Source of the DNA: an uncultured Lachnospiraceae bacterium
GTDB taxonomy: Bacteria; Bacillota; Clostridia; Lachnospirales; Lachnospiraceae
Assembly (NCBI GenBank): GCA_947586255.1
Contig: CANPXP010000024.1
Location: 1 to 40,385 of the forward strand
DNA: 40,385 bases
Reading direction: 5' to 3'
Both the position numbers and the translations under genes were made by a program. Of the stretch, positions 6,117-36,650 are shown in pieces (within the stretch, counting starts at the first letter, position 1; each line of letters starts with the position of its first letter). Below the pieces are notes generated by a model that saw only the letters and a program-made list of their open reading frames with translations, was not told the origin of the DNA and ran no database searches.

Positions 6117-6153
6117 GAGCCTCGGCAATATCAAGGGAATGGCCTGACAGGAG

Positions 6154-6187
6154 AAGGGCGGGAGCATTTTTATGTTTTCCCGTCCTT
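6154..6187 (+). terminator. Hairpin after the lipoprotein gene, possible weak terminator
   Basis: AAGGGCGGGA at 6154-6163 pairs with TCCCGTCCTT at 6178-6187 (ten pairs, one G-U), with a T-rich 14-base loop. No run of T follows, so termination is uncertain. Confidence 0.35.
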
Positions 6188-6206
6188 GTTGTGATAGGAG
6201 TTTTGT

Positions 6207-7877
6207 ATGCATGAGTCCGAAATGATCAGGGTAAATCAGGTCAGACTTCCGCTGGACCACAGGCGGGAGGATATTATCCGCAAGGCGGCGAAGCTTTTGC
6301 GGATTTCTCCAGGCGAGGTCCTGTCATGGCGGATCGCAAGGAAGTCCATAGACGCCAGGAAGAAGCCGGAGATTGCCGTTGTTTATTCGGTGGACGTAAG
6401 CGTGCAGGAGCCGGCTAAGGTTCTGGCGCGCTGTCACAGCGCGCAGGTGCAGGCGGTGACGGAGCACGCCTACGCCTTTGCAGAGCCCGGCGCGGCGCGG
6501 TTGTCTCACAGGCCGGTCGTCATCGGCAGCGGACCGGCGGGGCTTTTCTGTGCGTATCTGCTGGCGAAGCACGGCTACAGACCGTTAGTCTTAGAGCGCG
6601 GCAGATGCGTGGAAGAGCGGCGGGAGGACGTGGAGCGGTTCTGGCGGGAAGGCGTGCTTAACCCCGCGTCCAACGTGCAGTTCGGAGAGGGCGGCGCGGG
6701 CACGTTTTCCGATGGCAAGCTGAATACCCTGGTGAAGGATAAATACGGCAGAAACCGGGAGGTGCTGCGCATCTTTGCGGAGGCGGGCGCGCCGGAGGAG
6801 ATTCTGTACGATGCGAAGCCGCACATCGGCACGGATGTTCTGTGCAGGGTGGTGCGCCGGCTCAGAGAGCAGATCATCGCCTGGGGCGGCGAGGTGCGCT
6901 TTGGGGCGCAGGTGACGGACATCTGTCATGCGGACGGGCGGATTGCGGGCGTCGTGGTAAACGGCGCGGAGACGATCCCGTGCGAGACGGCAGTTCTCGC
7001 CGTGGGGCACAGCGCCAGAGATACCTTTGCCATGCTGCATGAAAAGCATATTCCGATGGAGGCGAAGGCTTTTGCCGTGGGACTGCGCATGGAGCATCCC
7101 AGACAGATGATCGACGAGATGCAGTACGGGCGATCGTCCGATCCGCGTCTCCCGGCGGCGAGCTACAAGGTGACGGCGCAGACCTCGTCGGGCAGAGGCG
7201 TCTATTCCTTCTGCATGTGTCCGGGCGGCTACGTGGTGAACGCCTCCTCCGAGCGGGAGCGGCTGGCGGTGAACGGCATGAGCTACAGCGGGCGTGACGG
7301 CATCAACAGCAACAGCGCCGTGATCGTCACGGTGACGCCGGAGGACTACGGGGAAGATTCGCCGTTGGCGGGGGTTGCCTTTCAGAGGCGGCTGGAGGAG
7401 CGGGCGTACCGGATCGGCGGCGGCAGCGTGCCTGTGGAGACTTATGGCGATTACAGGAGGGCCGTGACGGGAACGGACGCGGGAGCGTCGGCGATTGCGC
7501 GGGATTATCCGGATTTCGCGCCGGCCATCAAGGGCGCGCACCGGATGGCGGCGGTGCACGATATCCTGCCGCGGGAGCTGAGCGAGGCCCTCGTCGAGGG
7601 GATTGACCTAATTGGTCAGTCTGTGCGCGGCTTCGCGGACGGCGGCGCCTACCTGTCGGGCGTGGAGAGCCGGACTTCCTCGCCCGTTCGGATCACGCGG
7701 GATGAGACGGGCCAGTCGGCCCTGCGGGGACTGTATCCCTGCGGCGAGGGCGCGGGCTATGCGGGCGGTATCACCTCCGCGGCCATGGACGGTATGCTGA
7801 TCGCGGAGAAGATAGCGGCGAGATACCGCCCATTTACACAAGTATCGGAGAGAATGGATATAAGGGATGGAGAGTGA
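6207..7877 (+). CDS. FAD-dependent dehydrogenase of the COG2509 type
   Basis: The 556-residue protein has an N-terminal domain of about 95 residues (VNQVRLPLDHRREDI, then LRISPGEVLSWRIARKSIDA), characteristic of uncharacterised FAD-dependent dehydrogenases of COG2509. A Rossmann dinucleotide fold follows, with VVIGSGPAGLFCAYLLAKHG from about residue 104. Further family marks are SNVQFGEGGAGTFSDGKLNT and, near the C-terminus, YPCGEGAGYAGGITSAAMDG, which contacts FAD. The ATG lies six bases after TAGGAG. The 3' end abuts the proB start. It presumably catalyses a redox reaction in the cytoplasm, but the substrate is not established for the family and the proB neighbourhood does not settle it. 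Confidence 0.9.
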   Translation: MHESEMIRVNQVRLPLDHRREDIIRKAAKLLRISPGEVLSWRIARKSIDARKKPEIAVVYSVDVSVQEPAKVLARCHSAQVQAVTEHAYAFAEPGAARLSHRPVVIGSGPAGLFCAYLLAKHGYRPLVLERGRCVEERREDVERFWREGVLNPASNVQFGEGGAGTFSDGKLNTLVKDKYGRNREVLRIFAEAGAPEEILYDAKPHIGTDVLCRVVRRLREQIIAWGGEVRFGAQVTDICHADGRIAGVVVNGAETIPCETAVLAVGHSARDTFAMLHEKHIPMEAKAFAVGLRMEHPRQMIDEMQYGRSSDPRLPAASYKVTAQTSSGRGVYSFCMCPGGYVVNASSERERLAVNGMSYSGRDGINSNSAVIVTVTPEDYGEDSPLAGVAFQRRLEERAYRIGGGSVPVETYGDYRRAVTGTDAGASAIARDYPDFAPAIKGAHRMAAVHDILPRELSEALVEGIDLIGQSVRGFADGGAYLSGVESRTSSPVRITRDETGQSALRGLYPCGEGAGYAGGITSAAMDGMLIAEKIAARYRPFTQVSERMDIRDGE

Positions 7878-7878
7878 C

Positions 7879-8736
7879 ATGGCAGACATCAGAGAAAGGC
7901 TGAAGGATAAGAAGCGGATCGTGATCAAGATCGGTTCCTCTTCCCTGCAGCACAAGGAGACGGGAGATTTTGACTACACGAAGCTGGACGTGCTGGTGCG
8001 GGAACTGTGCGATCTCAGAAACCGCGGCAGGGATGTGGTGCTGGTGACCTCGGGGGCGATCGCAGCGGGCAGGAAGGCGATCATGATGCAGGATACCGGC
8101 GAGGACAATCCCACGGCGGTGAAACAGGCCTGCGCGGCCATCGGGCAGGCGCGGTTGATGATGACTTATCAGAAGATTTTCGCGGAGTACAATCAGGTGG
8201 CGGCGCAGATTCTGATGACGAAGAATACGATCATCGACAACCTGAACCGCTTCAACGCGCGCAACACGTTCATGGAACTTTTCAAGCTTGGCGTGGTGCC
8301 GATCGTGAACGAGAACGATACCATCGCGACCTACGAGCTGGGCATCGGCGACAACGACACGCTGTCGGCCATCGTGGCCTCTCTGATTGACGCGGATATG
8401 CTGCTGCTCTTGTCGGATATCGACGGTCTCTACACGGATGATCCGCGAAAGAACCCAAACGCAAAATATATCGAGGTGGTGGAGCGGCTGACGAATGAGC
8501 TGATGGAGATGGGCAAGGCCTCCACGGGCAGCGATTCCGGCACGGGCGGCATGAACACCAAGCTGCAGGCTGCGAAGATTGCCAACAATATGGGCGTCGA
8601 CATGGTGATCGCCAACAGCGCGGATATCAAGGTGATTCATCGGATTCTGGCGGGACAGAATATCGGCACGCTGTTTCTGGCGCATAAGGAAGAGGGCTTC
8701 GACCTGCCGCTGTATGTGCAGCAGATGCACGAGTGA
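7879..8736 (+). CDS. proB: Glutamate 5-kinase
   Basis: ProB phosphorylates L-glutamate to glutamyl 5-phosphate, the first step of proline synthesis. The amino-acid-kinase fold is evident from IVIKIGSSSL at the N-terminus, VLVTSGAIAAGRKAI, VPIVNENDTIAT, DNDTLSAIVASLIDADMLLL and GTGGMNTKLQAA, all in family order. I place the start at ATG 7879, six bases after GGAG, rather than at ATG 7867, which has a poorly spaced site and overlaps the previous gene. The product is 285 residues and lacks the C-terminal PUA domain present in longer ProB proteins; short forms are known in Firmicutes. The proA partner follows one gene later. Feedback inhibition by proline is usual for the family. Confidence 0.95.
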   Translation: MADIRERLKDKKRIVIKIGSSSLQHKETGDFDYTKLDVLVRELCDLRNRGRDVVLVTSGAIAAGRKAIMMQDTGEDNPTAVKQACAAIGQARLMMTYQKIFAEYNQVAAQILMTKNTIIDNLNRFNARNTFMELFKLGVVPIVNENDTIATYELGIGDNDTLSAIVASLIDADMLLLLSDIDGLYTDDPRKNPNAKYIEVVERLTNELMEMGKASTGSDSGTGGMNTKLQAAKIANNMGVDMVIANSADIKVIHRILAGQNIGTLFLAHKEEGFDLPLYVQQMHE

Positions 8737-8771: not shown

Positions 8772-9596
8772 ATGACCGTGGCGGAGATGACCAGACGTAT
8801 CAATGAGCTGTATCACAAATCCAAAGAAGTGGGGCTGACCGAGGCTGAGAAGGAAGAACAGCAGCGCCTCAGGCAGGCTTACGTGGCCAATGTGCGGGCG
8901 AATCTGCGGGGACAGCTCGACAATATCTCCATTGTGGAGAAGGACGGCTCGGTCACCGATCTGGGCAAGAGCGCCGCGCGGAAACGTGCGCTGGCAAAGA
9001 GAGAGAGCATATCCGCGCAGGACAGGACGGCGTATGACGCCGCCATCGCAGAGAACGTCACAGCCATGCGCGAGTATCGCGAGGCCGGGATAATTCTCGC
9101 TTATGCAGGTTATCGCAGCGAGGTCGATACGAAGGGACTGATCGAGAGCGCTCTGCGGGACGGGAAAACTGTGTTTGCGCCCAGAGTGTCCGGGGAGGAT
9201 ATGGAGTTCTGGCGCATTGCGTCATTGGCGGATCTGCGGGAGGGATACCGGGGGATTCCGGAGCCGGAACAGACGGTCTCCTTTCCGGAATGGCTCGAAA
9301 GGGAGAGCGACGGCCGAGACGGGGGCGGCGTGATGATGTGGATGCCGGGGGCCGCCTTTGACAGAGAGAGACATCGCATCGGTTACGGCGGCGGCTTTTA
9401 TGACCGATACCTGGCGCGCTATGTCGGGGAAGACCAGGACGGCGGGAAGAATCCGGAAACGCGCGGAGAGGGAAGGCGCTTTCGGCTGTGTACGGCGGCG
9501 CTGGCCTACAGCTGCCAGGTGTCGGAGAAGATTCCCTTCGAGGCGCACGATATCCGTCCCGACAGGATTGTGACGGAGCAGGGAATAATATGCTGA
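8772..9596 (+). CDS. DUF896 (YnzC-like) domain fused to 5-formyltetrahydrofolate cyclo-ligase
   Basis: I chose ATG 8772, six bases after CGGAGGT; the open frame also extends to a GTG at 8733 overlapping the proB stop. Residues about 3-60 match the small DUF896/YnzC family (INELYHKSKEVGLTEAEKEE, then QQRLRQAYVANVRANLRGQL). From about residue 66 the protein becomes a 5-formyl-THF cyclo-ligase: ARKRALAKRESIS, YAGYRSEVDT for folate binding, and the ATP/Mg loop IGYGGGFYDRYL at 203-214. This enzyme converts 5-formyl-THF to 5,10-methenyl-THF using ATP. The two parts are in one continuous frame of 274 residues, whereas they are usually separate genes. The gene sits inside the proB-proA pair with short spacing, so it is probably co-transcribed. 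Confidence 0.9.
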   Translation: MTVAEMTRRINELYHKSKEVGLTEAEKEEQQRLRQAYVANVRANLRGQLDNISIVEKDGSVTDLGKSAARKRALAKRESISAQDRTAYDAAIAENVTAMREYREAGIILAYAGYRSEVDTKGLIESALRDGKTVFAPRVSGEDMEFWRIASLADLREGYRGIPEPEQTVSFPEWLERESDGRDGGGVMMWMPGAAFDRERHRIGYGGGFYDRYLARYVGEDQDGGKNPETRGEGRRFRLCTAALAYSCQVSEKIPFEAHDIRPDRIVTEQGIIC

Positions 9597-9603
9597 GGCG
9601 GAA

Positions 9604-10866
9604 ATGGAGAGCGGAATGATGGAATATCTGGAACAGTTAGGGGAAAAGGCGGTCGCGGCGAAATACGCGCTGCAGAGACTGACCACAGAGGACAAAAACA
9701 GAGGTTTGGAAGCGGCGGCGGCTGCGCTTGTGCGGCAGACGGAGCGCATTCTTGCGGCCAACGGACAGGATTATCAGACCGCCCAGGCAGGCGGCATGTC
9801 GGAGGCGATGCTGGACCGCCTGAAGCTGACGCCGGAGAGAATCGGGGCGATGGCGGAGGGACTCAGACAGATCGCGGCCCTTCCCGATCCCGTCGGCGAG
9901 GTGATGGAGCGCTTCGACAGGCCCAACGGACTGCACATTGATAAGGTCAGGGTGCCCATGGGCGTGATCGGCATTATTTATGAGGCGCGCCCCAATGTGA
10001 CGGCGGACGCTTTCGGACTGTGCTTCAAGGCGGGCAGCGCGGTCATCCTGAAGGGCGGCAGTGACGCGGCTCGTTCCAACGGGGCCATCACGCAGATCAT
10101 TCGTGAGGCGCTGTCCGGCGCCGGCATCACGCCGGACGCGGTGCAGCTGATTGAGGACAACGACAGGGCGGTGACCACCGCCTTCATGAAGCTGAAACAG
10201 TATGTGGATCTTCTGATTCCGCGGGGCGGGGCAGGGCTGATCCGCGCGGTGGTGGAGAACAGCACCATCCCCGTGATTGAGACGGGGACGGGCAACTGTC
10301 ATATCTATGTGGATGAGGACGCGGACCTGGACAGGGCGATCCCCATTATCCTCAACGCCAAGACGCAGCGCATCGGCGTGTGCAATGCCTGCGAGTCCCT
10401 GCTGGTCCATGAGAAAATTGCGGAGCGTTTCCTGCCGGCGCTCGGCGAGGCGCTGCAGAAAAAGCACGTACAGGTGCGCGGCGACGAGACGGTGCGGCGG
10501 CTGATTCCCGACGCCGTGGCGGCTTCCGAGGAGGACTACGGGACAGAGTATCTGGACTATATTGTATCCATGAAGACGGTGGGTTCCGTGGAGGAGGCGG
10601 TGGAGCATATCAACCGCTATAACACCAGGCATTCCGACGCCATACTCACAGAGAACAAGGAGCACGCTGAACAGTTCCTGCAGGGAGTGGACGCGGCCTG
10701 CGTCTATGTCAACGCCTCCACGCGCTTCACGGACGGCTTTGAGTTCGGCTTCGGCGCGGAGATCGGCATCAGCACGCAGAAGCTGCACGCCAGGGGGCCG
10801 ATGGGCCTGAGGGAGCTGACCACTTACAAATATCTGATCCGCGGAGACGGGCAGATCCGCGCATAG
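9604..10866 (+). CDS. proA: Glutamate-5-semialdehyde dehydrogenase (gamma-glutamyl phosphate reductase)
   Basis: ProA reduces glutamyl 5-phosphate with NADPH to glutamate semialdehyde, the second step of proline synthesis. The 420-residue length is normal. Diagnostic segments include GVIGIIYEARPNVTADAFGL, LIPRGGAGLIRAVVENS, the catalytic cysteine region RIGVCNACESLLVH (Cys260) and FGFGAEIGISTQKLHARGPM. The start lies seven bases after the preceding stop; ATGs at 9616 and 9619 are alternative starts that would shorten it by four or five residues. No terminator separates it from the promoter of the arsR-type gene at 10888. Confidence 0.96.
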   Translation: MESGMMEYLEQLGEKAVAAKYALQRLTTEDKNRGLEAAAAALVRQTERILAANGQDYQTAQAGGMSEAMLDRLKLTPERIGAMAEGLRQIAALPDPVGEVMERFDRPNGLHIDKVRVPMGVIGIIYEARPNVTADAFGLCFKAGSAVILKGGSDAARSNGAITQIIREALSGAGITPDAVQLIEDNDRAVTTAFMKLKQYVDLLIPRGGAGLIRAVVENSTIPVIETGTGNCHIYVDEDADLDRAIPIILNAKTQRIGVCNACESLLVHEKIAERFLPALGEALQKKHVQVRGDETVRRLIPDAVAASEEDYGTEYLDYIVSMKTVGSVEEAVEHINRYNTRHSDAILTENKEHAEQFLQGVDAACVYVNASTRFTDGFEFGFGAEIGISTQKLHARGPMGLRELTTYKYLIRGDGQIRA

Positions 10867-10887
10867 AAGTTAATTTTCCGAAAAAGG

Positions 10888-10916
10888 TTGACATATCCCG
10901 CAAAATGAAATATTAT
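10888..10916 (+). promoter_or_regulatory. Predicted promoter of the metal-regulator operon
   Basis: A perfect TTGACA (10888-10893) and TATTAT (10911-10916) are 17 bases apart. The -10 adjoins the operator-like palindrome at 10915-10941, so a bound repressor would block transcription start. Confidence 0.75.
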
Positions 10917-10941
10917 ACATATGAACAAGTAAACATATGTA
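10915..10941 (+). promoter_or_regulatory. ArsR/SmtB-type operator (imperfect palindrome)
   Basis: ACATATG at 10917-10923 and CATATGT at 10934-10940 are mirror arms around the core AACAAGTAAA. The half-site ATATGAACAA is the recognisable motif of SmtB/CzrA/CadC-class operators. Its position over the -10 and transcription start fits autorepression of the gene that starts at 10960. Confidence 0.7.
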
Positions 10942-10959
10942 AGCGAAAGGGAAGGCAGT

Positions 10960-11334
10960 ATGGCAAAGGAGCGCGAAGACAGAGAAGAGCATATGCGAAA
11001 GGAAGCGGAAGCGGCGCGGGAGGATATTGTGGAGCAGGTGTCCAGACAGCAGCCCGACGACGAGATCCTGTATGATCTCGCGGAGCTTTTTAAGGTGTTC
11101 GGAGATTCCACGAGGATCAAGATTCTGTATTCCATGTTCGAGAACGAGCTGTGTGTGAACGATATCGCGAATCTGCTGCATTTAAGCCAGTCCTCCGTGA
11201 GCCATCAGCTGCGTATCCTGAAGACCTCCAAGCTGGTGAAATTCAGGCGGGAGGGCAAATCCGTCTACTATTCGCTGGACGACGAACATGTCAGAGCGAT
11301 CATAAGCATGGGCATGGAACACGTGGAGGAATAG
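10960..11334 (+). CDS. ArsR/SmtB-family metal-responsive repressor
   Basis: The 124-residue protein has the winged-helix core LFKVFGDSTRIKILYSMF, recognition helix LSQSSVSHQLRILK and wing VKFRREGKSVYYSL. It retains ELCVND (Cys65) where metal sensors of the CadC/ArsR branch carry a thiolate motif. At the C-terminal helix I read Asp108-x-His110, ten residues, His121-x-x-Glu124. This is the exact spacing of the alpha-5 zinc site of SmtB and CzrA (Asp, His, His, Glu). Zinc or cobalt sensing is therefore likely: metal binding would release the operator upstream. A charged 30-residue N-terminal extension precedes the core. It is followed 46 bases later by a small metal-binding protein gene. Confidence 0.92.
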   Translation: MAKEREDREEHMRKEAEAAREDIVEQVSRQQPDDEILYDLAELFKVFGDSTRIKILYSMFENELCVNDIANLLHLSQSSVSHQLRILKTSKLVKFRREGKSVYYSLDDEHVRAIISMGMEHVEE

Positions 11335-11380
11335 GCGCGCATATGGGAATGCGGGAAATGGAAAAACGGAGGGAAGAGAT

Positions 11381-11599
11381 ATGACGAAAACGTATAAGAT
11401 CGAAGTGGACTGTGCCAACTGCGCCGAGAAGATGCAGGAGGCGGCAGGAAAGACAGAGGGCGTGGTCAGTGCGGTGGTGAGCTTTATGACCCAGAAGATG
11501 AAGGTGGATTTCGCCGAGGGCGTCGATGAGAAGGCGGTCATGAAGCAGGTGCTGAAGGCCTGCCGCAAGGTGGAGCCCGACTGCGAAATCGAGCTGTAG
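11381..11599 (+). CDS. Small heavy-metal-associated (HMA) domain protein
   Basis: The 72-residue protein is a single HMA fold with the metal motif DCANCAEK (Cys11 and Cys14), close to CopZ and to the N-terminal domains of metal-exporting P-type ATPases. The aspartate before the first cysteine and the C-terminal EPDCEIEL resemble the N-terminal domains of ZntA/CadA-type ATPases more than a typical copper chaperone. A GGAGGGAAGAG ribosome site precedes the ATG. It follows the ArsR-type gene and probably shares its promoter. In related clostridia such a pair usually precedes a P-type ATPase gene; none is present here, and the next gene is a sensor kinase with its own promoter. Role may be zinc or cadmium buffering. 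Confidence 0.87.
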   Translation: MTKTYKIEVDCANCAEKMQEAAGKTEGVVSAVVSFMTQKMKVDFAEGVDEKAVMKQVLKACRKVEPDCEIEL

Positions 11600-11634
11600 A
11601 ACGCTCGGAATGACTGATAAATCCGGTCTGACTG

Positions 11635-11663
11635 TTGCAACATCAAATTCCACATGGTAAAAT
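11635..11663 (+). promoter_or_regulatory. Predicted promoter of the sensor-kinase/metH/ilv gene run
   Basis: TTGCAA (11635-11640) and TAAAAT (11658-11663) are 17 bases apart, about 48 bases before the kinase start. It is the only clear promoter I see ahead of the contiguous genes that run to 19874. Confidence 0.6.
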
Positions 11664-11710
11664 AGAAAAATATCGGGATAAAACAGCGTGGATACAGTGC
11701 GGGAGGATTT

Positions 11711-14659
11711 ATGAAGACTTCGGGCAAAAAGGAAAATAAAGCCATTGTTTGGGAGATCGTCTTTATATGCGCACTGCTGGCATTTATATCTTTCTCCTTT
11801 TTTACTTTCGCAAGGGATAACAGCAGGCGTGTGCAGGAGCAGAACGACAGCTTTATCGAGTCTGCCACGATGCAGTCCGCGGCGCGCATGAACGATCTGC
11901 TCTCCCTTGCGGGCAACAATGTGGAAATCTTGGCACATCTGTACGGTTCCATCATGACCGAGCCGGTCGTGGACGCGGCGATGCTTAAGGATATGACGGA
12001 CCGGTCTTTCTTCGACTATGTAGAATTCATCTCGCCCGACGGAATGGATCTGGCTGCGGACGGCAGGCAGGCGGATCTGGCGGATCGGGCTTATTTTCAG
12101 GACGGTATGCGGGGCAACAGCGGCAGAAGCGTTGTCTACAATTCCAGAATCACCAATGAGACGCTGCTGATTTTTTATACGCCCTTCTATTATGACGGCG
12201 AGATTATCGGCGTCCTGAGCGGTATTCTGCGAGAGGAGACGATACCGGCGCATTTGGCGGATGTGGACTATTTCGGTATGCAGGGCAGCGCCTATCTTCT
12301 GGAGGCGAACGGGAATGTAGTCAGCTATGTGGGCAGCGGCGAGAAGCCTGCGAATCTGCTGGAGCAGCTTAAGAGCAACGGCAAGCTCTCCGGAGAAGAG
12401 TGGGGCAGACTGGAGAACGCCCTCGCCACGGGCACATCGGCCAGATTTAACTATATCGGCGGAAGCGGCGCGGGCAGCGCTTATGTCACGGCGCTGGAGG
12501 GCGGAGATCTCTTCCTGGTGCAGAGCCTGCCTTCGCGGCTCAACAAGGGCATGACGCAGAGCGCCAATTCCGCCGGGATTCGTCTGGAAATCAAGCTGTT
12601 CATAGCTTTTCTTCTGTATATCGGATATCTCCTGGTCAAGAACTGGCTGCAGAGAAGACAGCTGCTTACCGAAAAGCAGGAGATTTCCCGCGTGGCGGAC
12701 GCCGTGCCGCATCTGTTCACGCGGTTTGCGCTGGTAGATCTGGAGAACGACACGTACGAATACCTGGAGGGCAAGAAGGGCGACGCGCCGGAGAAGGGAA
12801 AATACACGGAGCTGATCGAACATCTCCAGCCCAAGTATATCGCGGAGGACGACAGCGGCCGGACGATGGCCGACATTATCACCGCGGAACAGATACAGAA
12901 GCGGCTGACCGTGGATACGCCGTTTCTGCAGTATGAATATCAGATCGATATGGACGGCCATAGGTGGGAGAACATGTCCGTCATGTGCCTGGGACGCGAG
13001 GAGGACAGGGCGGTCAAGGTCCTGTTTGCCATTCAGGATGTGACGGCGATCAAGGAGCGGGAAATCGAGATCCGCATGGCGCTCAGGAGCGCGTCGGAGG
13101 CCGCGGAGGCCGCCAACCGCGCCAAGTCGGACTTCCTGGCGAGAATGTCTCACGATATCCGCACGCCCATGAACGCCATCATGGGCATGACCGCCGTGGC
13201 GGCGATGCATATGGACGATCAGGAGAGACTTGCGGACTGTCTGGGTAAAATCACAATCTCCAGCAGGCATCTGCTGGCGCTGATTAACGACGTGCTGGAT
13301 ATGTCCAAGATCGAGAGCGGCAAAGTCACCCTGAGCGAGGAGCCGTTTACGATGTCCGATCTGGTGGAGAGCGTTGCCACGATCATCAAGGCGCAGGTGA
13401 ACGACAAGCACCAGCAGCTGCGGGTGCACATCTCGGATATCGTCCATGAGGACGTCATCGGCGACACGCTTCGCCTGCGGCAGATTTTCGTCAATATTCT
13501 CGGCAACGCCGTGAAGTTCACGCCGGAGGGCGGGATTATCACCTTCAACATCAGAGAGCGGAAAAGCCGTATCCACGGCATGGGCTGTTATGAGTTTGTC
13601 TGCGAGGACACCGGAATCGGCATGAAGCCGGACTTCATAAAGACGATTTTTGATCCCTTTACGAGAGCGCAGGACTCGGTCAGCAGCAAGATTGAGGGGA
13701 CCGGGCTCGGCATGTCCATCACCCGCAATATTGTCCGCATGATGGAGGGCGATATCCAGGTGGAGAGTGTGCCGGGGCAGGGTTCCAAGTTTACCGTTCA
13801 GGTCCATCTGAAGCTGCAGGCCGTGGCCGCGGATGATGTGAAGGAGCTGGAGAATCTGCGGGTTCTGGTGGCGGACGACGACCAGAACTCCTGCATCAGC
13901 ACCTGCGATATTCTGGAGAGCATCGGCATGGAGGCGGAATGGGTGCTGAGCGGAGACGGGGCGATCGAGAAGACCGTGGCGGCCCATGAGGCTAAGGAGG
14001 ATTACGCGGCAGTCATTCTGGACTGGAAGATGCCGCCGGGAAGAGACGGCGTTGACACGGCCCGCGAGATCCGCAGGCTTATCGGCGATGAAATCCCGAT
14101 TATCATTCTGTCGGCCTACGACTGGACGGAGATCGAGACGGAGGCGCGCGAGGCGGGGATTCAGGCGTTTATTGAGAAGCCGCTGTTCCGTTCCAGACTG
14201 ATCTACGCGCTCAAATCCGTTCTGGGTCAGGGTGAGCAGCAAAAGCCTGGTTACGGGGAACTGGAGAAGCAGAGCCATGAAGGGAAGCGGATTCTTCTGG
14301 TGGAGGACAACGAACTCAACCGTGAGATCGCAGGGGAATTGCTCTCTTACATCGGCGTTACAGTAGAGCAGGCGGCGGACGGACAGGAGGCCGTTGATAT
14401 GGTGACGGCGCATGAGCCGTATTACTACGATTTGATTTTTATGGATATACAGATGCCTGTCCTGAACGGGTATGAGGCGGCGAGACAGATACGGGCGATG
14501 CAGCGCGAGGATGCGGCGTCCGTCCCGATTGTCGCGATGACGGCGAACGCCTTTGCGGACGATATACGGGATGCGCATGAGGCCGGTATGAACGATCACA
14601 TAGCGAAGCCCGTGGAGGTAGAGAAGCTGCAGGAAGCCCTGAATAAATGGTTGGCATGA
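11711..14659 (+). CDS. Hybrid sensor histidine kinase with extracellular Cache-like domain and two receiver domains
   Basis: The 982-residue membrane protein begins with a transmembrane segment (about 13-35). An extracellular region of about 260 residues resembles a double-Cache/PDC sensor (DRAYFQDGMRGNSG, IIGVLSGIL). A second membrane segment follows at about 295-313. The cytoplasm holds a PAS-like region, a HisKA helix FLARMSHDIRTPMNAIMG (phospho-His481), an ATPase domain (NILGNAVKFTPEGG, DTGIGM, GTGLGMSI), and two receivers with Asp771 (ILDWKMPPG) and Asp912 (FMDIQMP). No DNA-binding or other output domain is present, so the signal must pass to another protein or end in protein contacts. 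It is followed closely by a lipoprotein gene and metH. Confidence 0.93.
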   Translation: MKTSGKKENKAIVWEIVFICALLAFISFSFFTFARDNSRRVQEQNDSFIESATMQSAARMNDLLSLAGNNVEILAHLYGSIMTEPVVDAAMLKDMTDRSFFDYVEFISPDGMDLAADGRQADLADRAYFQDGMRGNSGRSVVYNSRITNETLLIFYTPFYYDGEIIGVLSGILREETIPAHLADVDYFGMQGSAYLLEANGNVVSYVGSGEKPANLLEQLKSNGKLSGEEWGRLENALATGTSARFNYIGGSGAGSAYVTALEGGDLFLVQSLPSRLNKGMTQSANSAGIRLEIKLFIAFLLYIGYLLVKNWLQRRQLLTEKQEISRVADAVPHLFTRFALVDLENDTYEYLEGKKGDAPEKGKYTELIEHLQPKYIAEDDSGRTMADIITAEQIQKRLTVDTPFLQYEYQIDMDGHRWENMSVMCLGREEDRAVKVLFAIQDVTAIKEREIEIRMALRSASEAAEAANRAKSDFLARMSHDIRTPMNAIMGMTAVAAMHMDDQERLADCLGKITISSRHLLALINDVLDMSKIESGKVTLSEEPFTMSDLVESVATIIKAQVNDKHQQLRVHISDIVHEDVIGDTLRLRQIFVNILGNAVKFTPEGGIITFNIRERKSRIHGMGCYEFVCEDTGIGMKPDFIKTIFDPFTRAQDSVSSKIEGTGLGMSITRNIVRMMEGDIQVESVPGQGSKFTVQVHLKLQAVAADDVKELENLRVLVADDDQNSCISTCDILESIGMEAEWVLSGDGAIEKTVAAHEAKEDYAAVILDWKMPPGRDGVDTAREIRRLIGDEIPIIILSAYDWTEIETEAREAGIQAFIEKPLFRSRLIYALKSVLGQGEQQKPGYGELEKQSHEGKRILLVEDNELNREIAGELLSYIGVTVEQAADGQEAVDMVTAHEPYYYDLIFMDIQMPVLNGYEAARQIRAMQREDAASVPIVAMTANAFADDIRDAHEAGMNDHIAKPVEVEKLQEALNKWLA

Positions 14660-32369: not shown

Positions 32370-32675
32370 ATGACGATCGACGGAAAAAAAGAGGGAACGA
32401 CCCTTGGGATCGCTCTGGAGGGACGTCTGGACACGGCGACCGGCCCGGAGCTGGAGAAGTATCTGAAGGAGAATCTGGGAGCGGAAATCACGGAGGTGTG
32501 CTTTGATTTTGAGAAGCTTTCCTATATTTCCAGCGCGGGTCTGCGCATCCTGTTATCGACGCGGAAGCAGGTGGGCGACCGCTCCGGCTCGGTTAAGCTG
32601 AAGAATATGAACGATCTTGTCATGGATATTTTTAACGCGGTCGGATTTGCGGAATTCTTTGAGATAGAGAAGTAG
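32370..32675 (+). CDS. STAS-domain protein, anti-sigma-factor-antagonist-like (SpoIIAA/RsbV type)
   Basis: The 101-residue protein is a lone STAS domain: IALEGRLDTATGPELEKYLK at the start, then FDFEKLSYISSAGLRILLST, which holds the phosphorylation loop with Ser54-Ser55. Ser55 aligns with the serine phosphorylated in RsbV. ATG 32370 lies seven bases after a perfect AGGAGG. In known systems such proteins bind an RsbW/SpoIIAB-type ATPase/kinase and are released by phosphorylation. A kinase domain of that type is present two genes downstream, fused to a MATE transporter. No PP2C phosphatase or sigma factor is in the window. Confidence 0.88.
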   Translation: MTIDGKKEGTTLGIALEGRLDTATGPELEKYLKENLGAEITEVCFDFEKLSYISSAGLRILLSTRKQVGDRSGSVKLKNMNDLVMDIFNAVGFAEFFEIEK

Positions 32676-32726
32676 GAAATTCCGATACTGTCGGACAATT
32701 ATTATATAATCAAGGAGGATATATTG

Positions 32727-33713
32727 ATGGATGAGAAACTGAAACAGGCGATGAGAATGTTGTTGCTGGAGTACTATGATATGGACGTCGCGGAGGCGAT
32801 CTGCAAGTATTCCACACAGAACTATGCGTTTATCTTTCCGGATAAGCCCTACATGATCCGTGTCAGCATGAGCCCGAAGAAGACGAAGAACGAGATTCTG
32901 AGCGAGCTGATGTGGGTCGACGATCTGAAGAGAGTAAAGCAGACGATCTGCGAGCCGGAGCCTTCCCTGCGCAACAAAATCATGGAAGAGTTCGAGATCG
33001 ACGGCACAATGTACCGCGCGAGCATGTTCCGCACCGCGAGAGGAAACGTGCAGACCGCTACGGAGATCACGCCGCTGTTCTTTATCTGTGTGGGCGATCT
33101 GCTCGGCATCATACACAAGACCAGCGCGGAAGAGCAGGCGCTGGGTATGCACTACCAGAGGCAGACCAAGCAGGAGAACTTTGACGCGCTGAAGGCGGCC
33201 TGCTGGGACAGACTGAGCGATCAGGCCAAGGACAAGATTACGCAGATCGAGTCGGAAATTGAGGCTATGCCCAAGGAGATGGGCGTCTACGGTCTTATAC
33301 ACGGCGATTTCCACCTGAATAACTTCTTTGTGGAGGCCAACAATATCTGGCTTTTCGATTTTGACAGCTGCGGCTATGCGCACTATCTGTACGATGTAGC
33401 CACGTTTATCACGGACTGCCTGCAGAAGGGATATATGAAGGGGAAGGACTGCCGCAAGGTCGTGTTCGAGGATATCCTGCCTTACTTCAAGATCGGATAC
33501 TGCCTGAATAAGGAGTGCGACGAGCACTACTGGGATAATCTGGAGGTCTTCATAGAGTATCGAATTGCGGTGACGGTACTGGCGCTGCAGGACATCAAGG
33601 AATGCGGAGTCAGCGATCATCTGGATGACATCAAGCGCTACTACGAGATGCTGCTGGTTGCCGATAACTGTCTGGATGAAATGACACGTTTGTCAATAGG
33701 AGCCGGAAAATGA
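32727..33713 (+). CDS. Phosphotransferase of the APH/choline-kinase fold, substrate unknown
   Basis: The 328-residue protein has a kinase-like fold with the Brenner motif LIHGDFHLNN (His192, catalytic Asp194, Asn199) and the Mg-binding WLFDFDSCGYAHYLYDVATF (Asp211). These match the aminoglycoside phosphotransferase/homoserine kinase/choline kinase group. The N-terminal nucleotide-binding lobe is recognisable but divergent (YAFIFPDKPYMIRVSM). It starts at ATG 32727, eight bases after AAGGAGG. Its stop overlaps the next start as ATGA, so it is translationally coupled to the MATE fusion gene. Substrate could be a small molecule that is exported, a sugar or a lipid head group; nothing in the sequence decides. 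Confidence 0.85.
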   Translation: MDEKLKQAMRMLLLEYYDMDVAEAICKYSTQNYAFIFPDKPYMIRVSMSPKKTKNEILSELMWVDDLKRVKQTICEPEPSLRNKIMEEFEIDGTMYRASMFRTARGNVQTATEITPLFFICVGDLLGIIHKTSAEEQALGMHYQRQTKQENFDALKAACWDRLSDQAKDKITQIESEIEAMPKEMGVYGLIHGDFHLNNFFVEANNIWLFDFDSCGYAHYLYDVATFITDCLQKGYMKGKDCRKVVFEDILPYFKIGYCLNKECDEHYWDNLEVFIEYRIAVTVLALQDIKECGVSDHLDDIKRYYEMLLVADNCLDEMTRLSIGAGK

Positions 33714-35497
33714 GAAACGATTACATTGTAAAAAAAGTATACCAATCCTTCCTGCTGATTTCCATTCTGTCGGCGCTGACGGTCACGGCGGGCATGCTGA
33801 TCGACAATATCGTGATCGGGCAATTCCTCGGAACGGACGCGCTGGGCGCTATGGGTGTAGTCAGCCCGGTCGGGCTGATCTTCTCGGCGGTGGGCAATAT
33901 CTCGTCGGCTGGCGGTACGGCGCTGGCCGCACAGGCGCTCGGAAAGCGTGACAAGGAGAAGCTCAACCAGATTTTCTCCCTGTGCCTCTGGTATGTGTTT
34001 GCGCTGGGCGGTATCCTGACCGTAGTTGGTCTGGTGTTTACGCCGCAGATCGCATCCATCCTCGGCGCCAGGGGGGAACTGGCGGAGCCGACGGTGCAGT
34101 ATCTGAGAGGATATTTCCTGGGAGCGATTCCGACGATCATGATGCCGACGCTGAGCGGTTTTGTAAAGATTGACGGTTCCGCCAAGACGCCGCTTGCCGC
34201 TATGGCGGTGATGTCGATTGCGGACGTCCTTCTCGATCTGGTGATGGCCCTCGTGGTCCGCTGGGGAATGTTCGGTATGGCGCTCGCCACGACGATCAGC
34301 TATTGCCTGGCGGTCGGCGTCTGCCTGCTGCATTTTAAGAAGGATTTCTGCACGTTAAAATTTATCATGCCGAAAAATATCATGCGGCAGATGAGGTCGT
34401 TAGTGGTGTCCGGTGCGCCGACCGCGGTCAGCCGTATCTGCAATACCTTTGAGACGATGATCTTCAACAATCTGCTCGTCACGTTTGTGGGCGTCGGCGC
34501 TGTGACGGCGCTGAATGTCAGGACGCAGACGTATAATATCGCGGGAACCGTCGCGCTGGGCGTCGGACAGGCGCTTCTGCCGGTGGCCGGCATGTTTTAC
34601 GGGGAAGAGGATGAAGGCTCGCTCAAGGATACCATGCGGGTGACGCTGCGGACCGGTTTCGTGCTGTGTATTGTCGTGGCCGTGGCGCTGTTTATCGGGG
34701 CGTCGTTTTTCGGCGGTCTTCTGGGCGTGAAAGATCCGGAAATTATGGAGATGGCCAATATAGCGATCCGCCTGTACGCCGTGAGTATGCCGTTCCAGCT
34801 GTTCAATCTGGTCTGGATGAATTTCTATCAGAGTACCAAGCAGGGCGGGCTGGCGATCATGATATGCGTTCTGCAGTCTTTTGTGTATGCGGTGCTCGCG
34901 GGACTTGGCCTGATACGGCCGCTCGGCAGCAACGGCATCTGGCTGGCTCTCCTGATCGGAGAAGTGCTGACGGCGCTGACGCTGTATATTTATATTGCCT
35001 GCAAAAACAAGAAGGTGAAGATCGGCGTTCCGGATTATATGCTGCTCAGGGATAACTTCGGCGAAGAGGCGCTGCACATGTGGGAACACTCCATCGGAAA
35101 CGATATGGAAGAGGTTATGAAGATCTCCGAGAAGATCACGCAGCACGCCGACGAGGATGAACTGAATGAGGATACAAGAGAACTGCTGCGCATGCTGGCG
35201 CTGATCATAGAGGAGATGGCGGGCAATATCATACAGCATGCCTTTAAAGAGGGAGAGAAGCGGTGGTTTGACTTAAAGATACTGGATAAGGAAGAGTGCA
35301 TGATCGTGCGTCTTCGCGACAACGGGCAGGCATTTGATCCCCGTAAGTATCTGCAGGAGAATAAGGAGGCGGGTCCGGAAGAGAATCTGGGACTGCGCAT
35401 GATCTCAAATCTTGTTTTTGATATGGAATACAGCAGAACGCTCAGCCTGAACAATCTGCTGATCACGGTACAGAAGCAGAGTAGACACCACAGCTGA
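33710..35497 (+). CDS. MATE-family efflux transporter fused to an RsbW/SpoIIAB-like ATP-binding domain
   Basis: The first about 450 of 595 residues form a MATE multidrug-type exporter with about 12 membrane segments (ILSALTVTAGMLIDNIVIGQ; ALGAMGVVSPVGLIFSAVGN). From about 460 to 590 lies a cytoplasmic GHKL ATPase domain of the serine-kinase anti-sigma kind. It has an N box EEMAGNIIQHAF (Glu502, Asn506), G1 box RDNGQAFDPR (Asp537, Gly539) and G2-like NLGLRMI (559-565). MATE proteins are normally about 450 residues and lack this tail. There is no histidine-kinase HisKA part, so STAS or small-molecule regulation is more likely than a two-component role. The STAS gene lies two genes upstream in the same unit. 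Confidence 0.9.
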   Translation: MRNDYIVKKVYQSFLLISILSALTVTAGMLIDNIVIGQFLGTDALGAMGVVSPVGLIFSAVGNISSAGGTALAAQALGKRDKEKLNQIFSLCLWYVFALGGILTVVGLVFTPQIASILGARGELAEPTVQYLRGYFLGAIPTIMMPTLSGFVKIDGSAKTPLAAMAVMSIADVLLDLVMALVVRWGMFGMALATTISYCLAVGVCLLHFKKDFCTLKFIMPKNIMRQMRSLVVSGAPTAVSRICNTFETMIFNNLLVTFVGVGAVTALNVRTQTYNIAGTVALGVGQALLPVAGMFYGEEDEGSLKDTMRVTLRTGFVLCIVVAVALFIGASFFGGLLGVKDPEIMEMANIAIRLYAVSMPFQLFNLVWMNFYQSTKQGGLAIMICVLQSFVYAVLAGLGLIRPLGSNGIWLALLIGEVLTALTLYIYIACKNKKVKIGVPDYMLLRDNFGEEALHMWEHSIGNDMEEVMKISEKITQHADEDELNEDTRELLRMLALIIEEMAGNIIQHAFKEGEKRWFDLKILDKEECMIVRLRDNGQAFDPRKYLQENKEAGPEENLGLRMISNLVFDMEYSRTLSLNNLLITVQKQSRHHS

Positions 35498-35513
35498 AGC
35501 GGGAGGAAATATT

Positions 35514-36650
35514 ATGGGAAAAAGCATGGACGGGACAGCACCGGCAAAGCAGCGCATGGCGCAGCAGGATATCGCTAAAGGAATCGCCATACTGGTCGTT
35601 CTCGTAGTGCATACGATGTCGCTGCCGACCGTTTTTTACAATCGGTTTATGGCCTGTCTGGGCTATGTGCTGCCGTTCTTCTTTTTCATGTCCGGTTACA
35701 ATTACAGGCCGCACCGTGCCAGCTATGCCGAGAATATCCGCAAGCGCGCCCGTCAGCTGATCGTGCCGTTTCTGGTGTACACGATCGGCGTGGGTGTCGT
35801 GATGGGAGCTTATCTGATTCTGCGCGGCGAGGCGACCCTGCGGCAGGTGTCTTTGTCGATTGTGCAGACGCTGCTGACCAGATATACGTTTGTGCTGTTT
35901 GGCGTGACGATAGATTATTCCATGACGCTGTATGTTCTCATGGCGCCTTTCTGGTTTCTTCAGTACATGATGGTCGGCTATCTGATCTTCTATGCGGTGG
36001 CGGATTATGCGCTGGAAAACATGGGCCGTTTCGCCTCGGTGAATGGCTGCCTGATCGGTGTGACGATGATTCTGGAAGCCTTCGGCCTGCATCTGCCGTG
36101 GGGAATCGATGTGGCGCCGGCGATTGCGAGCTTTATGCTGTTCGGCGCGCTGTTCGGACAGCATCGGGTGCTGCACAGCGGCACGACGCGGACGCGCTAT
36201 GTCGTGCTCAACGCGGTTGTGGCGTTTGCCATCTGTCTTGTTCTGGGTCTGATGCATCCGCTGGCGGGGATGATGATAGCCGGGCGCATCGCATGGCAGC
36301 TCGGCCCCTGGGAGGTGCCGCTCACCCTGCTGATGTCGATACTCAGTTCCTATACTCTGAACAATGTGGGCCGGCTGATCGACAGGATTCCGGTAGTCAA
36401 CGGCCTGCTTGGCTGGATCGGGCGCAACACTTTGCCGATCTTGCTGCTGCACCAGAGTTTCGCGCAGCTGATCTCCGATGTTACCGGGTTTAAGAAGGGC
36501 AGCAACATGATGGAAGAGGGCACCGTCGAGACGATGGACTGGAGCCAGCTTGCGCTGTATGTGCTGATGCTGATTCTGGTGTGCGTTTATGTATGGCTGT
36601 GGGGCAAGTGCAAGAGTGCGATTATGCGGAAACGCTCTGCATCGAAATAG
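35514..36650 (+). CDS. Integral membrane acyltransferase (acyltransferase-3 family)
   Basis: The 378-residue protein has about ten hydrophobic segments and the N-terminal signature DIAKGIAILVVLVVHTMSLP, where the family has its conserved histidine. A second mark is LPFFFFMSGYNYRP. Members transfer acyl groups such as acetyl or succinyl to sugars, peptidoglycan or surface glycans. GGGAGGAAAT precedes the ATG, 16 bases after the MATE fusion stop, so it is the last gene of the module. The acceptor is unknown. An AT-rich stretch of about 60 bases follows and marks the boundary to coaD. Confidence 0.88.
   Translation: MGKSMDGTAPAKQRMAQQDIAKGIAILVVLVVHTMSLPTVFYNRFMACLGYVLPFFFFMSGYNYRPHRASYAENIRKRARQLIVPFLVYTIGVGVVMGAYLILRGEATLRQVSLSIVQTLLTRYTFVLFGVTIDYSMTLYVLMAPFWFLQYMMVGYLIFYAVADYALENMGRFASVNGCLIGVTMILEAFGLHLPWGIDVAPAIASFMLFGALFGQHRVLHSGTTRTRYVVLNAVVAFAICLVLGLMHPLAGMMIAGRIAWQLGPWEVPLTLLMSILSSYTLNNVGRLIDRIPVVNGLLGWIGRNTLPILLLHQSFAQLISDVTGFKKGSNMMEEGTVETMDWSQLALYVLMLILVCVYVWLWGKCKSAIMRKRSASK

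Follow-up and report, generated by a model that had tools for sequence, protein, structure and literature searches.

Control of sigma factors is the textbook role of partner switches, for which few other outputs are known. The subject of this report is a four-gene cluster at positions 32370-36650 of a 40,385-nucleotide stretch of DNA (hereafter the window), which is the entire contig C24 (CANPXP010000024.1) of an uncultured Lachnospiraceae bacterium; its genome assembly (GCA_947586255.1) amounts to 2.78 Mb in 88 contigs and is 85% complete. Head to tail on the + strand, the four open reading frames encode a STAS protein, an APH-fold kinase, a MATE transporter fused to a GHKL ATPase domain (MATE-GHKL) and a membrane acyltransferase-3. 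The cluster resembles the SpoIIAA-SpoIIAB-SpoIIE and RsbV-RsbW-RsbU switches in having the same three domain types among itself and its relatives, a predicted STAS phospho-serine and a kinase glutamate at the position that contacts that serine; in the accessible part of the source, the phosphorylated serine of RsbV is Ser56 and is contacted by Glu49 of RsbW (PMC7340262). Unlike in the SpoIIA and Rsb switches, the kinase domain here lies within a MATE transporter, STAS is tied to APH, and none of the neighbours scanned is a sigma factor. We tentatively read the locus, at little short of an even chance, as encoding part of a partner switch (PP2C, STAS and RsbW-type kinase) whose output would be a metabolite kinase-exporter pair and not a sigma factor.

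The CapK-CapS and VapK-VapS-VapC systems likewise combine a GHKL kinase and STAS with a non-sigma output, and have STAS fused to kinase or output domains; the outputs there, however, consist of a repressor that binds DNA and a toxin of the PIN-nuclease type, single-stranded DNA activates the kinase, and the accessible part of the source describes no membrane transporter or small-molecule kinase (PMC13373217). STAS domains bound or fused to transporters, with a possible phospho-regulation site, occur in MlaB-MlaF (PMC7367683) and SLC26/SulP (PMC8256260), but these are ABC or anion transporters for which no transporter GHKL kinase or PP2C partner is described in the available portions of the two papers. 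In the HsbA-HsbD system of Pseudomonas aeruginosa, according to the accessible part of the source, a STAS protein switches over to a diguanylate cyclase, an enzyme rather than a sigma factor (PMC5085249). To the extent that these sources are available, the closest published logic is that of CapK-CapS/VapK-VapS-VapC and of STAS-regulated transporters such as MlaFB. The output of HsbA-HsbD is reportedly second-messenger synthesis, with no transporter fusion. Neither fusion, MATE-GHKL or STAS-APH, nor a partner switch that controls such a transporter was found described in open PMC titles and abstract starts, a scope outside which most of the subscription literature falls.

An initial annotation, made from the letters of the window, had set out the four open reading frames, their domains and their junctions, and all of these were confirmed by open reading frame and Pfam/NCBIfam scans. 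The STAS/APH junction measures 51 bp with an ATG at 32727, or 48 bp with a TTG start at 32724; APH and MATE-GHKL overlap by 4 bp (ATGA), and 16 bp separate MATE-GHKL from the acyltransferase-3 gene. The features of the cluster are as follows.

32370..32675, + strand: RsbV/SpoIIAA-type single-domain STAS protein, 101 amino acids (Pfam STAS/STAS_2, TIGR00377)
32532..32534, + strand: predicted phospho-acceptor serine codon, Ser55, YIS-S-AGLR (alignment with RsbV Ser56)
32727..33713, + strand: APH-fold kinase, 328 amino acids, TTG start at 32724 possible (Pfam APH 5.5e-13)
33300..33323, + strand: APH catalytic loop HGDFHLNN (HGDFHxxN in 17/17 subfamily members, window included)
33710-35497, + strand: MATE-GHKL fusion gene (MatE 4.2e-36; HATPase_c_2 8.3e-12 at residues 465-577)
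33710..35029, + strand: MATE transporter domain, residues 1-440 (MatE)
35060..35497, + strand: C-terminal RsbW-type GHKL (HATPase_c_2) domain, residues 451-595 (HATPase_c_2 8.3e-12; RsbW profile match)
35210..35227, + strand: N-box EEMAGN with Glu502 and Asn506 (Glu502 aligns with RsbW Glu49)
35514..36650, + strand: membrane acyltransferase-3, 378 amino acids (Pfam Acyl_transf_3 4.9e-25)

Analysis of the individual domains placed two parts of a putative switch in the window. The STAS protein matched Pfam STAS at 2.6e-14 and TIGR00377 at 64.7 bits, above the cut-off of 53.45, and its alignment with RsbV displays the phospho-acceptor loop motif D/S-S-S/T/A-G; 4hyl and RsbV 6m36_B are among the solved structures closest to it in sequence. 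Its score against the SpoIIAA orthology model TIGR02886 was 39.9 bits, below the cut-off of 114.75 bits. The sequence SSAGL was found in 24 of 25 STAS regions near MATE-GHKL genes (loci are numbered with L below). The exception, L157, was a false match that Pfam identified as an alpha/beta hydrolase, and it was removed from the counts. The GHKL domain carries the motifs of a putative RsbW/SpoIIAB-type kinase (HATPase_c_2, N-box Glu/Asn, G1-box Asp/Gly), with a predicted beta-alpha-alpha-beta-beta topology, and these kinase boxes are intact in 19/19 of the proteins that can be read in the window's 20-member clade. Its best natural profile match was RsbW 6m36_A (E value 2.8e-5), two designed repeat proteins having ranked higher through repetition, and its scores fell below the RsbW equivalog cut-offs (18.4 vs 145 bits for NF003144; 17.2 vs 155 bits for TIGR01924). 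The transporter part shows MatE repeats and a MOP fold and scored 150.3 for TIGR00797, above the cut-off of 147.4. A fold search with the full-length MATE-GHKL model, which informs the MATE part only, listed only MATE and other MOP folds. ClbM, a MATE transporter with a role in colibactin, was one of the structural matches.

The fusion of MATE and GHKL is widespread. A search of 98 relatives returned repeated full-length fusions, with matches at 1e-30 in 51/98 genomes when plain MATE proteins are included, and the GHKL domain was present in 21/23 MATE loci from named records. In the family, 31/397 genomes, the own genome of the window among them, contained MATE-GHKL at E values up to 1e-55. 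A draw of 398 genomes from the phylum, scored for at most three candidates per genome so that counts among the matches listed are a floor, gave a full-length fusion in at least seven genomes besides that of the window (G507, G626, G357, G760, G521, G303 and G805), spanning four families.

The link between these transporters and switch genes was then assessed against plain MATE genes. Of the 81 MATE-GHKL genes (75 loci), 36, the window's own among them, have a STAS or PP2C gene within 8 kb, vs 0/20 plain MATE controls; Fisher's test gave a p of 5e-5, which serves as a guide only, given the relatedness of the 81 genes, the one fragment among them and the nearness of several to contig ends. The controls comprised 13 genes from fusion-bearing genomes; 5 more were taken from the rest of the genus, and 2 from the order. 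Of 76 fusion loci, L153 was dropped with no fusion gene called; L043 was omitted as lying on the same contig as L064; the 81 genes include a 315-amino-acid fragment (L060 11782) and one cut by a contig end (L070), and the neighbours of the window and of L067 were assigned by hand. PP2C counts come from a PP2C-only profile, an earlier whole-sensor-phosphatase profile having caught sensor-only proteins, of which five (one in a control) were dropped. On a tree of 80 rows the presence of STAS changes at least 19 times and that of PP2C 17 times (the latter with the earlier PP2C labels); because of these changes the linkage is regarded as patchy and repeated rather than as one inherited operon.

The kinase gene is more constant. 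The APH protein of the window has the APH fold with the HGDxxxxN and DFD motifs of APH/AmiN-type kinases, is 53-67% identical to the APH proteins of 16 relatives and may be regarded as a putative small-molecule kinase. APH lies directly upstream in 16/21 MATE-GHKL loci from named records, the gap ranging from -11 to +40 bp, and in 16/17 testable relatives with at least 45% identity. In the exception, L064, the 188 bp available upstream contain no end of an APH gene, and a STAS-APH fusion follows 52 bp downstream. The L076 sequence opens inside the gene, with STAS 14 bp downstream; L077, L081 and L082 (39%, 29% and 29% identity) lack a directly upstream APH. The conserved core is thus APH plus MATE-GHKL. 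The position of STAS varies: it stands upstream of APH in the window and in L072, which share the order STAS-APH-MATE-GHKL, a STAS-APH fusion lies 49 bp upstream of MATE-GHKL in L169, and STAS overlaps the 3' end of MATE-GHKL in L067. In L074, L075 and L079, STAS, PP2C, GHKL, APH and MATE-GHKL are all present together. The same clusters in L074 (3434-6334) and L075 (5749-8682) encode proteins of 966-977 amino acids; in that of L074, the one scanned, a long N-terminal part with no domain assignment precedes a C-terminal MFS domain.

These neighbourhoods also bear on the four-gene order that the initial annotation had offered as a candidate module. A search for its recurrence did not recover it: STAS-APH-MATE-GHKL was found in L072 and, as a STAS-APH fusion, in L169. 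That the order with the acyltransferase-3 gene occurs in the window only would suit the idea that the four genes are chance neighbours in an operon. We nevertheless hold chance to be highly improbable, given that APH-MATE-GHKL is kept in nearly all testable close relatives, the one exception having a STAS-APH fusion, and that STAS, APH and GHKL are linked to each other by fusions. The accompanying proposal of a partner switch fared better in part, the kinase motifs and the phospho-serine being intact, STAS recurring beside MATE-GHKL or fused to APH, and PP2C occurring in relatives, without the full four-gene module being upheld.

The fusions were examined separately. An alignment of four STAS-APH proteins matched 43/397 family genomes at E values up to 1e-40, some of the 43 having APH without STAS (e.g. 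an HD-APH protein), and the same search gave no match in the own genome of the window. At all 30 loci examined STAS and APH were encoded in one open reading frame; a simple motif search recovered the phospho-serine motif in 28/30 and the APH loop in 29/30, and PP2C lay within the same 4 kb in 10/30. Six of the 30 loci, in six genomes, encode STAS-APH-GHKL single chains, one of them cut by a contig end; L149 15626-17206 is an example. As a separate observation, L232 (1051-2550) and similar proteins in L233-L239 are APH kinases of about 490-530 amino acids with an extra N-terminal region, which Pfam identified as an HD domain in L232, the one scanned.

Within the GHKL domain, Glu502, the predicted STAS-contact residue, is kept in 80/81 MATE-GHKL proteins (one is cut), and Asn506 is kept in 55 and lost in 24 of the 79 domains aligning there, with about five changes on the tree; 22 of these 24 have also lost the G1-box Asp537. 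Glu502 is kept in all 24 domains without Asn506, and the pattern suggests that STAS docking is conserved and kinase activity optional in MATE-GHKL. PP2C lies nearby for 17/24 of the Asn506-less proteins vs 13/55 of those that keep the residue. It could be argued from the same losses, which include the L170 triad described below and leave the STAS-contact Glu in place, that GHKL and STAS are constitutive assembly tags for the kinase, the transporter and the enzymes, with no phosphorylation switch; degenerate GHKL domains appended to SDF and ABC transporters point the same way. The intact kinase boxes throughout the readable members of the window's clade and the recurrence of PP2C as a neighbour argue against such tags, and we regard this explanation as distinctly unlikely.

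GHKL domains on other transporters were observed in two arrangements. RsbW-like GHKL domains, mostly degenerate, occupy the N-terminus of sodium:dicarboxylate symporters (SDF) in L055 (16128-17717), L060 (4475-6082), L156 (6065-7708) and L161 (11219-12814), and RsbW-like GHKL domains stand at the C-terminus of ABC transporter proteins in L053 (2092-3243), L073 (1263-2387), L055 (13414-16131) and L059 (1339-4752), the last two being binding protein, permease and ATPase in a single chain. Pfam gave HATPase_c_2 values of 0.0033 to 0.2 for 3/8 of these SDF and ABC pieces and none for 5/8. Profile-profile comparison identified GHKL at 98.3% on SDF and 97.9% on ABC, where the four ABC proteins were compared as one group and L073 alone is weak; negative controls gave 0.1-0.2%. 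The SDF domains compared with the window's own GHKL subfamily at 45% only.

The initial annotation had stated that no PP2C phosphatase or sigma factor is near; this holds for the eight window open reading frames covered by our annotation (the four module genes and four flanking frames), none of which is a PP2C or sigma factor gene, and the absence is only local, as PP2C occurs near the module in some relatives and elsewhere in the own genome, with matches on C13, on C29 and, weakly, on C6. Contig C13 (L042) encodes a second MATE-GHKL (9367-11139) and a dCache sensor PP2C (6131-8284), with a GNAT gene between them; this second GHKL domain has lost the Asn and has a degenerate ATP box. L042 also encodes, at 11296-13119, a protein of 607 amino acids with an RNA polymerase alpha C-terminal domain, an AAA ATPase and an AAA lid. 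In another family, L170 presents a tight triad of STAS, MATE-GHKL and dCache-HAMP-PP2C with gaps of 23 and 24 bp.

If the partner-switch reading is correct, the membrane-tethered GHKL domain would phosphorylate STAS and so hold it off, and a sensor PP2C would dephosphorylate STAS once an outside ligand is sensed. The PP2C might be supplied from elsewhere in the own genome, beside the second MATE-GHKL, or, in some relatives, by a gene adjoining the module. Unphosphorylated STAS would then dock on the GHKL domain beneath the transporter, where docking could gate the transporter and/or bring the APH kinase; where a single chain comprises STAS and APH, the kinase would be recruited directly by docking. 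Phosphorylation and export of a small molecule would thus follow the signal.

Several results weigh against this reading. Neither STAS nor PP2C lies within 8 kb of 45/81 MATE-GHKL genes, some of them at contig ends, and within the window's clade of 20 a same-strand STAS is found within 8 kb in 9 and a PP2C in 5. The GHKL domain of L170 has lost Asn506, so the triad is without an intact kinase of its own, and a kinase from elsewhere would therefore be needed. The association between Asn506 loss and PP2C was not independent of phylogeny (5 changes, median sign-test p of 1, earlier PP2C labels). The gap between STAS and APH in the window carries a weak terminator-like hairpin at 32681-32695. Finally, the own genome, at its 85% completeness, shows one condensation domain only, in a frame of 528 amino acids.

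The direction of signalling could also be the reverse. Transporter-like domains can be kinase sensors, CbrA being an example, and the MATE part might be a sensor whose substrate occupancy sets the GHKL kinase, STAS then signalling elsewhere through a free RsbW such as that on C10 and an unseen sigma factor. The intact kinase boxes in the window's subfamily would fit such a sensor. The own genome has three STAS genes, on C17, on C10 and in the window; that on C17 is spoIIAA-like and lies beside spoIIAB-like and sigma genes (recognised by eye), and C10 carries a separate STAS and RsbW-like pair through which cross-talk would be possible. On the other side, inspection by eye picked out no sigma gene in the open reading frames of the 3.3 kb surrounding the C10 pair, none is present among the scanned window frames, and the clusters contain effector-type genes (APH, nonribosomal peptide synthetase, GH3, ATP-grasp) with STAS fused to APH. 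On balance we consider a sensor unlikely, though by no means far-fetched.

The nature of the neighbouring enzymes suggested what might be exported under the partner-switch reading. A same-strand condensation domain of a nonribosomal peptide synthetase (NRPS) was found no further than 8 kb from 9/81 MATE-GHKL genes vs 0/20 controls. L072 has the order NRPS-STAS-APH-MATE-GHKL, the available part of its NRPS comprising three adenylation domains, two condensation domains and a terminal reductase, and L080 has the order NRPS, APH, MATE-GHKL. L055, L057 and L061 have enzymes of the GH3 and ATP-grasp types as neighbours. These neighbours fit a small molecule that would be made, modified and exported, much as in the amicoumacin clusters and with ClbM, and the exported molecule in some relatives is plausibly the product of the neighbouring NRPS. 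The GH3-family enzymes of L055 (6502-8172) and L057 (6077-7681) were observed in clusters with STAS, PP2C and MATE-GHKL.

Both MATE pumps and APH kinases are well known from classic resistance, and the nearest solved relative of the window APH by sequence is the amicoumacin kinase 6sum (E value 6.4e-19). Both points would favour an ordinary detoxification pair of antibiotic-type kinase and MATE pump, with STAS a mere neighbour. Such a pair leaves unexplained why a GHKL domain is present, why STAS is fused to APH and, in STAS-APH-GHKL chains, also to GHKL, and why PP2C is linked, and we judge it quite improbable. The amicoumacin clusters are instructive in another respect, since they join an NRPS-type pathway with a putative kinase, AmiN, or, in one species, X. 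bovienii, with a MATE drug transporter, AmiQ. The X. bovienii cluster, however, lacks amiN, and no STAS, GHKL or PP2C is described for these clusters in the accessible part of the source (PMC5055758).

The last gene of the cluster was evaluated separately. Lying 16 bp behind MATE-GHKL, the acyltransferase-3 gene is for that reason perhaps co-transcribed with it. Apart from the window's own, profile matches to acyltransferase-3 were found near 3/81 MATE-GHKL genes (L054, L062 and L063), and only in the window does the gene lie directly downstream on the same strand. The L062 and L063 genes are on the opposite strand and their products are 27% and 24% identical to that of the window, vs 61-62% for the MATE proteins; that of L054 is upstream on the same strand, was detected by the iterated profile only and gave no blastp match at 1e-3. 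Its candidacy as a core member was rejected on the strand and identity of the L062 and L063 genes, and the acyltransferase, which falls outside the conserved module, is best regarded as incidental or as an addition peculiar to the species. Where the initial annotation had counted both the kinase and the acyltransferase as module parts, the kinase stands, with APH upstream in 16/17 relatives, and the acyltransferase does not.

Considered more broadly, the results raise a further proposal, which we put somewhat below an even chance. A class of signal-gated export modules may exist in Lachnospiraceae and other Bacillota, in which RsbW-type domains (active, or ATP-dead and docking) are built into MATE, SDF or ABC transporters and STAS into small-molecule kinases, and in which a sensor PP2C would switch, at the post-translational level, the assembly and activity of a complex for synthesis, phosphorylation and export, a sigma factor having no place in the circuit. 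Here a partner switch appears joined by fusion to both a transporter and a small-molecule kinase across many gut-bacterial genomes, some of which have peptide-making enzymes alongside. Should this hold, it would place the export of gut metabolites under post-translational on/off control, gating modification and export without gene expression, and the biochemistry would be directly testable with three small soluble parts (STAS, the GHKL domain and PP2C) and two activities.

Searches with PADLOC models at E values up to 0.001 gave 0 matches for the four window proteins and one STAS-APH-GHKL protein, and a known anti-phage defence system was rejected on this result. The module is flanked by rsmD and coaD. 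A scan of the window gave 9 promoter-like sites vs 4.7 expected and 9 terminator-like sites vs 3.7 expected, both mostly intragenic.

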